From Pirellulales bacterium (GTDB lineage: Bacteria > Planctomycetota > Planctomycetia > Pirellulales > Lacipirellulaceae): a stretch of 64,000 nt of DNA. Location of the stretch: contig JAKVCC010000004.1 of assembly GCA_022448265.1 (NCBI GenBank), forward strand, positions 124,001 to 188,000, written 5' to 3'. Position 1 is the first letter of the stretch. Every line of letters starts with the position of its first letter. Of this stretch, positions 38,526 through 39,435 are shown in pieces. The notes under the pieces are model-generated. The model was not told the origin of the DNA and made no database searches. It was given only the letters and a program-made list of their open reading frames with translations. Made by a program: the position numbers and the translations under genes.

Positions 38526-38897
38526 CTACTGAATCGAGTATTCCGTCAGATGCGGATTCGTTTTGGCGAAATTATCTAGTTGGGACCGGTAGTCGATTTC
38601 GGCGTTTTCCAGTCGGAAACTGCACGTACCACTTGCGATATCAGTTTGAATATCGTGGACACCTGCGATCTTCATCAAATCGCCTCGGACCGAGGCGGCG
38701 CAGCCTCGTCAGGTCATGTTTGGGACGACGAGGGTTACCAGGACCAGATCGGAAGACTGGTCGGTATACAAGGATTGATCGTCGGCGGACGGCACAGCCG
38801 ACCGGCCTTCAGGGTTCTCGGGATTAGCGCCGCCTTGGCAGCCCAGCAATAGGGACGCCAGGCATACAAGGAGCCTGGCCGATTCGTGTTTATGCAT
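38526..38897 (-). CDS. Candidate selenoprotein: HMA-domain lipoprotein with in-frame TGA
   Basis: Read through its TGA, this gene encodes a 123-residue lipoprotein. AGGAGG lies five bases before ATG 38897. The signal ends in lipobox LLGC (C20). After a short linker the HMA fold begins: VTLVVPNMT, then TGA (38711-38709, residue 63), then RGCAASV, LMKIAGVHDIQTDIASGT, FRLENAEI and a final strand, stopping with TAG at 38528-38526. In HMA proteins the motif is MTCxxC, so TGA sits exactly at the first metal-binding Cys. Sec-x-x-Cys is the natural reading. Without readthrough the product would be a 62-residue fragment lacking most of the domain. The role is likely binding of a soft metal (Cu, Hg or similar) at the cell surface. 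The alternative is a pseudogene with a Cys-to-stop mutation. Confidence 0.75.
38682..38711 (-). promoter_or_regulatory. Candidate bacterial SECIS element
   Basis: On the minus strand the TGA is followed after 12 bases by a perfect 6-bp stem (GCCTCG, loop GTC, CGAGGC). Its loop starts with G and lies 18 bases after the TGA. Known bacterial SECIS hairpins have a short apical loop with an early G about 16-37 bases downstream of UGA. A competing 6-bp hairpin (CGAGGC, loop TGCGCC, GCCTCG) begins right after the TGA. Confidence 0.6.
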
Positions 38898-39308
38898 CGC
38901 GTCCTCCTAAGGCCGTTCGGAATCTGCAACCGGTCCAAGCGTTTAACACTCCACACAGGAGTGACGTGACGAAAGGATTCCTGCATTGTATTCAGAAACG
39001 GGCCAAAACGCCAACAGAATTCAGGATGACTCGGGAAGCGGTTTTTTGCATCGGGTTGAAATGCCTCCGCAGCGAGAACGCTAATCACCTGGACAAAAGG
39101 ATACGAACTCATCTCCTAGTAGGTCGGGCGAAGCAACAACTCAATTTCCTTGCTGTGCTTGGCGAACAAATGCGCACGGGCCTCGGCACTCTTCGGCTGA
39201 ATGCAAAACGCGTCAGAAATATGGCGTGGTTCAAACAACAATATCTGCCGGAATATTCTCGACGCGGTTTGTTTGAGCGGCACTTTGAGCAACGCAACTC
39301 TAGACGCC
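38898..39308. other. Spacer upstream of the candidate selenoprotein gene
   Basis: On the minus strand a protein-like frame runs from 39319 to about 38940 but is broken by TAG at 39118-39116. On either side it reads FEPRHISDAFCIQPKSAEA and FPSHPEFCWRFGPFLNTMQ. I do not recognise a family. It may be a decayed gene. The opposite-strand open frame 38966-39361 looks like a shadow. Confidence 0.3.
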
Positions 39309-39346: not shown

Positions 39347-39361
39347 CGATTTGAAGAATAG

Positions 39362-39435
39362 TCGGGGCGACAGGATTTGAACCTGCGACCTTAGCGTCCC
39401 GAACGCTACGCGCTACCAGACTGCGCCACGCCCCG
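39362..39435 (-). tRNA. tRNA-Pro (anticodon CGG)
   Basis: On the minus strand the 74-nt sequence begins CGGGGCGTGGCGCAG and ends with the matching 7-bp acceptor arm CGCCCCG plus discriminator A. The anticodon stem-loop is TAGCG-TTCGGGA-CGCTA, with anticodon CGG. The T arm is GCAGG-TTCAAAT-CCTGT. CCA is not encoded. Confidence 0.95.

Follow-up and report, generated by a model that had tools for sequence, protein, structure and literature searches.

Selenocysteine (Sec) is already known from several proteins of the heavy-metal-associated (HMA) type, i.e., MerP, the UxxU proteins, and the MerT/CopZ proteins. For MerP (TIGR02052), which has an exported HMA fold, Sec-containing reads are described from the GOS survey (PMC2398784). 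The UxxU metal-binding (seleno)protein NF041115 carries two Sec in an HMA-type metal site; a protein of this type is listed as 'putative mercuric reductase' in PMC13188914, whose Table 1 also contains a cation-transporting ATPase E1-E2 selenoprotein with a UxxC motif. In the MerT/CopZ fusion-like heavy metal transport selenoprotein NF045683, Sec occurs in an HMA portion resembling CopZ, which the model, 235 positions long, joins to a MerT portion. In the ATPase selenoprotein, the UxxC presumably lies in the HMA domain. Finally, planctomycetes such as the one studied here also possess HMA lipoproteins with a CxxxC motif (e.g., L005 in the same genome), which combine a lipobox with the HMA domain.

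The locus that we describe here shares features with each of these systems and differs from all of them. It lies in a window of 64,000 nucleotides, the whole stretch of DNA that was analysed (G000:C34:124001-188000), from the genome of a Pirellulales bacterium (G000; 3.64 Mb, 87 contigs, 97% complete). The window protein has the exported HMA fold of MerP, whose model is matched by 33 of the 42 family members with E-values of 1e-5 or below, down to 1.3e-9; the window protein's own score, however, is only 24.2 bits where the cut-off lies at 92.55. Unlike MerP, it belongs to a family of putative lipoproteins in which Sec is nearly universal, and its gene has no conserved neighbour and no mer genes that were noticed beside it. 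It has one Sec (UxxC) where NF041115 has two, scoring 17.5 bits with that model (cut-off 95), and obtains 19 bits with the NF045683 model, whose cut-off is 375. With the E1-E2 ATPase selenoprotein it has UxxC in common, but it is a stand-alone protein of 123 residues without any ATPase. The L005 type differs by having Cys instead of Sec and one extra residue between the ligands, and is distant (26% identity to the window protein).

No NCBIfam cut-off was reached by the window protein or by the one relative of its kind that was compared in the same way; for the 42 members, only E-values were considered, the best being the one to MerP. Moreover, a 119-family selenoprotein table (2026, PMC13188914) has no row for the window protein, and no published report of this protein was found in the open literature, including the available portions of PMC9312934, PMC4807772, PMC1088965, PMC1794560, and PMC1242214. 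Since the supplementary planctomycete selenoproteins of PMC4807772 and the subscription literature lay outside this search, a mention elsewhere cannot be excluded. The family is new to the lists that were checked, while its general kind is known. It adds to the selenoproteins of many planctomycetes a family that ordinary gene calling cuts short at the TGA.

The Gene and Its Reading Frame

The gene is carried by the minus strand of the window (38526-38897). An AGGAGG ribosome-binding site (38903-38908) is found five bases before the ATG at 38897, and the first codons specify a putative lipoprotein signal peptide (38838-38897) with the lipobox LLLGC, judged by eye, whose Cys20 is encoded at 38840-38838. 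Further on, the frame meets an in-frame TGA (38709-38711) within the motif P-N-M-T-TGA-R-G-C-A-A-S-V, continues for 60 codons, and ends at a TAG (38528-38526). An earlier note, made from the sequence alone, had claimed each of these elements, including the placing of the TGA inside an MTCxxC-type motif, and direct reading bears them out base for base. As it had also predicted, ordinary annotation would give a fragment only, i.e., an ORF of 62 aa ending at the TGA (38709-38897). When UGA is read as Sec, the whole gene encodes 123 residues, with Sec63 and Cys66 (38700-38702) as first and second metal ligands in the UxxC motif; this reading rests on the translation with TGA as U, on 44 distinct relatives, and on purifying selection acting on the tail. 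A tRNA-Pro (CGG) gene is located about 460 bases upstream, on the same strand (window 39361-39435).

The Encoded Protein

The read-through protein, with U entered as C, matches Pfam HMA (PF00403) over residues 57-104 (38586-38729, minus strand) with 35.9 bits (E 9.9e-9; cut-off 24.8), in agreement with the domain assigned in the earlier note. An AlphaFold model computed on 42 family members reaches a pLDDT of about 95 for residues 51-123 (mean of 78 for the whole chain) and displays the beta-alpha-beta-beta-alpha-beta order of HMA strands and helices. When PDB was searched with Foldseek, the first match was MerP (1osd, E 9.7e-5), and most of the next ones were HMA domains that bind copper. Nine positions are invariant in the family alignment, i.e., P59, M61, U63, C66, A67, S69, V70, R71, and N114.

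The export signal was assessed by eye and by regular expression, without a signal-peptide predictor. A lipobox-like motif was recovered in 32 of the 43 loci of our contig scan (see below). Among the 11 others, six are YceI fusions whose signal peptide looks ordinary, three have their start cut off or masked, and two (L097 and L118) look right by eye. A YceI domain is fused N-terminally to the Sec-HMA domain in seven scan loci (L014, which is the same record as L075, L073, L092, L100, L108, L111, and L114; Pfam E 4e-31 to 1e-25); the six fusions that were checked by regular expression have no lipobox and look periplasmic.

The position of the signal peptide before the UGA leaves room for the UGA to act as a selenium-dependent switch, giving a short lipoprotein of 62 residues without selenium and the full protein with it, a property which in principle every Sec codon has. 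On the other hand, relatives differ in how long the region linking lipobox and domain is and in its sequence, which speaks against a selected short product, and we give such a switch only a slim chance.

Conservation of the TGA Codon

At E 0.001, protein matches were obtained in 25 of 196 neighbourhood genomes, and 13 loci of this set contain exactly one in-frame TGA, in a UxxC (10) or a UxxxC (3) motif. We also performed an open scan of GTDB contigs, in which the pattern allowed any base at the third position of the Sec codon. It returned 57 matches, with TGA in 43, TGC in 10, TGT in 1, and TGG in 3. All 43 TGA matches are family members by translation (L110 being cut at the stretch end), with the TGA at the same codon and a frame that stays open through the domain, so that the homologue comparison proposed in the earlier note comes out in favour of Sec. 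Nine of the TGC matches and the TGT match, considered as Cys orthologues, were rejected as HMA proteins without the C-terminal motif of the family; they come from Azospirillum records and one 'Roseomonas'. The last TGC match and the three TGG matches look like chance frames. As the pattern requires CA[A/S]SVR, members without this stretch were missed. After removal of exact duplicates, a total of 74 TGA matches was reduced to 44 distinct genes.

A profile search in 397 genomes of the window's class, which recovered some of the members lacking CA[A/S]SVR, gave 24 matches scoring 80 bits or more. One TGA is present in 21 of them, located at the motif in every case (L143 and L147 included), and three have no TGA. 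These three are Cys forms with TGC (L148 and L149) or TGT (L158) at the Sec codon. Only two genomes, G442 and G490, both 99% complete, have a Cys form alone, and in neither does SelB reach the cut-off of 242 bits (best match 159 bits). In comparison, SelB is over cut-off in 23 of the 24 genomes with a UxxC TGA form (10 from the 196-genome set and 14 more from the class search), the exception being G415, whose SelB match of 195.6 bits ends at a contig edge. Sec is near-universal in the UxxC family and not an occasional swap for Cys. This pairing of a Sec form with SelB and a Cys form without it makes the benefit of selenium to a metal site testable in a small and well-understood fold. One genome, G373, contains both a Sec and a Cys form (L144 and L158) together with SelB.

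In a phylum sample of 392 genomes, E 1e-10 was reached in two, namely the window genome and G255, which belongs to the same class; the family hence seems concentrated in the window's class, the share of this class in the 392 not being shown. A plasmid search gave six records, all from Azospirillum, with 33-35% of the query covered. In viral contigs, none of 73 pattern-matched stretches was confirmed; one of the two patterns used there has a Cys codon at the Sec position, so that TGA forms would escape it. A named isolate, K23_9, carries one member in its complete genome (CP036526.1). Two others, L105 and L106, are titled Kuenenia and Nealsonbacteria and are placed among Pirellulaceae in the family tree; these are probably mis-binned or mis-named contigs. 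The family tree (53 rows, 76 columns) has many unresolved forks, and it cannot be told from it whether the Cys forms have a single or multiple origin, or whether they derive from Sec.

A Conserved Hairpin Downstream of the TGA

The window gene contains the hairpin GCCTCG-GTC-CGAGGC (38696-38682, minus strand), which starts 12 nt after the TGA. As announced in the earlier note, it has a 6-bp stem and a G-first loop of three bases (GTC); the loop begins 18 nt after the TGA. We compared the 44 distinct TGA genes without gaps and showed that each forms a hairpin at the same offset, with six pairs in 33 genes and five in 11. When synonymous codons were redrawn according to local codon use, a mean of 3.3 genes out of 44 had at least five pairs (maximum 10 in 2000 draws). 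Holding the first two codon bases, which allows for the search pattern, raised this mean to 5.4 (maximum 14 in 5000 draws). The genes being related, these counts are not independent trials; across the family, the hairpin nevertheless goes beyond chance. No hairpin of at least 5 bp was present in the three Cys forms.

The stem also co-varies. One of its pairs is C-G in 25 genes, U-A in 14, and G-C in 4, and genes found without the CAASVR filter include a further compensated stem, CGCTGC/GCAGCG. Pairing cells amount to 95.7%, against 88.3% in shuffles (0/500 as high) and at most 50% when the positions were slid. Two of the five measures of co-variation did not exceed the shuffles, i.e., pairs changed on both sides (44/500) and further pair types (200/500).

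According to PMC13188914, the bSECIS model demands a loop of 3-9 nt, a stem of 4-16 bp, G in the first two loop positions, a distance of 16-37 nt from the UGA, and a minimum free energy of -7.5 kcal/mol or lower. The window hairpin satisfies all of them (loop GUC of 3 nt, 6 bp, 18 nt, -8.2 kcal/mol as a bare hairpin), in line with the fit to bacterial SECIS constraints claimed beforehand. Over the family, -7.5 kcal/mol is met by 20 of 44 genes for the bare 15-nt hairpin, by 37 for 21 nt, and by all 44 for 39 nt.

Folding of longer RNA gave a divided answer for the window gene. With 39 nt, the SECIS-like hairpin is the minimum. With 52 nt, stability is unremarkable (z -1.36) and the minimum-energy structure is a competing hairpin (38691-38708, minus strand), whose first arm directly follows the TGA and pairs 38708-38703 with 38696-38691. 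By inference, a ribosome positioned with the UGA in the A site would open up this competitor. Among the 44 genes, the family hairpin is part of the 39-nt minimum in 33, and in 41 when the first 9 nt are omitted.

Selection beyond the TGA

The end of the gene is visible for 43 of the 44 genes, in which 57-93 codons follow the TGA, 60 being the commonest number. In equal-length pairs with at least 80% protein identity, and with the SECIS codons excluded, dN/dS after the TGA ranged from 0.00 to 0.29 in 12 of 13 pairs; the thirteenth (L081/L085) was saturated and gave no value. On these ratios, the part after the TGA is under purifying selection, and the relaxed evolution (dN/dS near 1) that would have spoken against a selenoprotein was not observed.

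These results bear on the simplest competing explanation, already raised in the earlier note, namely that a Cys-to-stop mutation, or a sequencing error, produced the TGA and left a pseudogene or nothing more than the 62-residue fragment. A single base change suffices to convert TGC or TGT into TGA, and Cys forms do occur in three places. A simple mutation cannot, however, explain a TGA that recurs in the 43 scan loci together with a conserved, co-varying hairpin in 44 of 44 distinct genes; the dN/dS values far below 1 and the association with the Sec machinery described below also contradict it. We regard this explanation as practically eliminated.

The Selenocysteine Machinery

The earlier note had asked for selA, selB, selD, and selC, and all four components are located on one contig of the window genome, C19. 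We identified there a tRNA-Sec with anticodon TCA (70.6 bits), SelB (353 bits, cut-off 242), SelA (529 bits, cut-off 268), and a SelD domain (276 bits, cut-off 125) inside an oxidoreductase/SelD fusion. In this sel locus, the SelD (L063:4850-7054, G000:C19) carries an N-terminal pyridine nucleotide-disulphide oxidoreductase. The fusion gene obtains 439 bits with the 'fusion_not_SelD' model, below its cut-off of 700.

At the level of the 196 genomes, tRNA-Sec matches under 55 bits were left out before counting, this lower tier being taken for other tRNAs. SelB is over cut-off in all 10 UxxC genomes, and tRNA-Sec reaches at least 62 bits in nine. When the UxxxC genomes are included, SelB is found in 12 of the 13 TGA-HMA genomes, tRNA-Sec in 12, and at least one of them in all 13, versus 64 of 196 genomes overall (Fisher p 2e-7). 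The two misses are G111 (65% complete), without SelB, and G068 (81% complete), without tRNA-Sec. In the genomes whose protein matches have no TGA, the Sec trait is present in three of 12.

Computation alone cannot name the inserted residue, and the UGA might be read as Trp or another amino acid through a suppressor tRNA, near-cognate read-through, or a changed code. Against this, the 43 visible gene ends use TAG (20), TAA (14), and TGA (9), so that TGA is also a working stop in the Sec-HMA family; in addition, SelB and/or tRNA-Sec accompany every TGA-HMA genome of the set, and relatives have a metal-binding Cys at the Sec position. Decoding as anything other than Sec is, to our mind, very improbable. 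We conclude that the gene is a genuine selenoprotein gene in which UGA specifies Sec (probability about 0.94). The frame, the family, the conserved hairpin, the purifying selection on the tail, and the Sec machinery are all computed observations, and the Sec interpretation of the earlier note is strongly supported by the sel locus, the conserved TGA, the hairpin, and the low dN/dS. Insertion itself is inferred, as are lipid anchoring at Cys20 and the role of the protein, and there is no bench evidence for it.

Proposed Decoding and Role

According to the mechanism that we propose, SelB, with Sec-tRNA of anticodon UCA, would recognise the hairpin 12 nt past the UGA and decode this codon, and the 60 further codons would then be translated up to the TAG. 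The product would be an exported, lipid-anchored HMA protein in which Sec replaces the first ligand of an MxCxxC site, converting it into UxxC. Its most likely role would be to bind soft metal ions (Cu(I), Ag(I), Hg(II)) in the cell envelope through the resulting selenolate-thiolate pair, or to pass them on.

The genomic context gives no direction here. Clustering of 678 ORFs within 4.5 kb of the 44 loci revealed no conserved neighbour gene. The two clusters with most members consist of frames lying antisense to the Sec-HMA gene itself, and the next one is a gene that looks sulfatase-like by eye, in seven loci. No mer genes were noticed beside the Sec-HMA gene in these 44 neighbourhoods, and none of the three HMA matches of the window genome at E 0.001 lies in an ATPase-sized frame. 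In the absence of a conserved neighbour and of an ATPase-sized HMA frame, soft-metal binding in the envelope is only a guess from fold and motif.

The same lack of mer-type neighbours and of an ATPase-sized HMA match would suit a selenoprotein whose main role is thiol/selenol redox chemistry by a UxxC pair and not metal binding; as stated in PMC13188914, many uncharacterised UxxC selenoproteins are taken for redox proteins. Two points oppose it, i.e., the fold, with MerP and copper-binding HMA domains as nearest structures, and the placing of Sec at the first metal ligand. A redox role retains an appreciable chance, short of even. That metal binding is the main role is an inference that we hold at roughly even odds.

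Other Candidate HMA Selenoproteins of Planctomycetes

A second group of HMA lipoproteins has one TGA in a UxxxC motif (MTUPVGC). It comprises L023, L027, and L029, as well as L167 and L168, and has downstream hairpins of its own at another spacing; L023 was assigned by sequence only. One may speculate that the exported HMA selenoproteins of planctomycetes (UxxC, UxxxC, UxxxU, and the YceI-HMA fusions) together make up a mer-independent selenol system of the envelope that serves soft metals or redox, with selenium instead of sulphur as the near-obligate ligand in the UxxC branch, an idea that we consider tentative and rather unlikely as it stands. The UxxxU motif occurs in HMA lipoproteins with two in-frame TGA (L159-L163); SelB is over cut-off in the genomes of L159, L161, L162, and L163, and is present as a fragment in that of L160 (G415).
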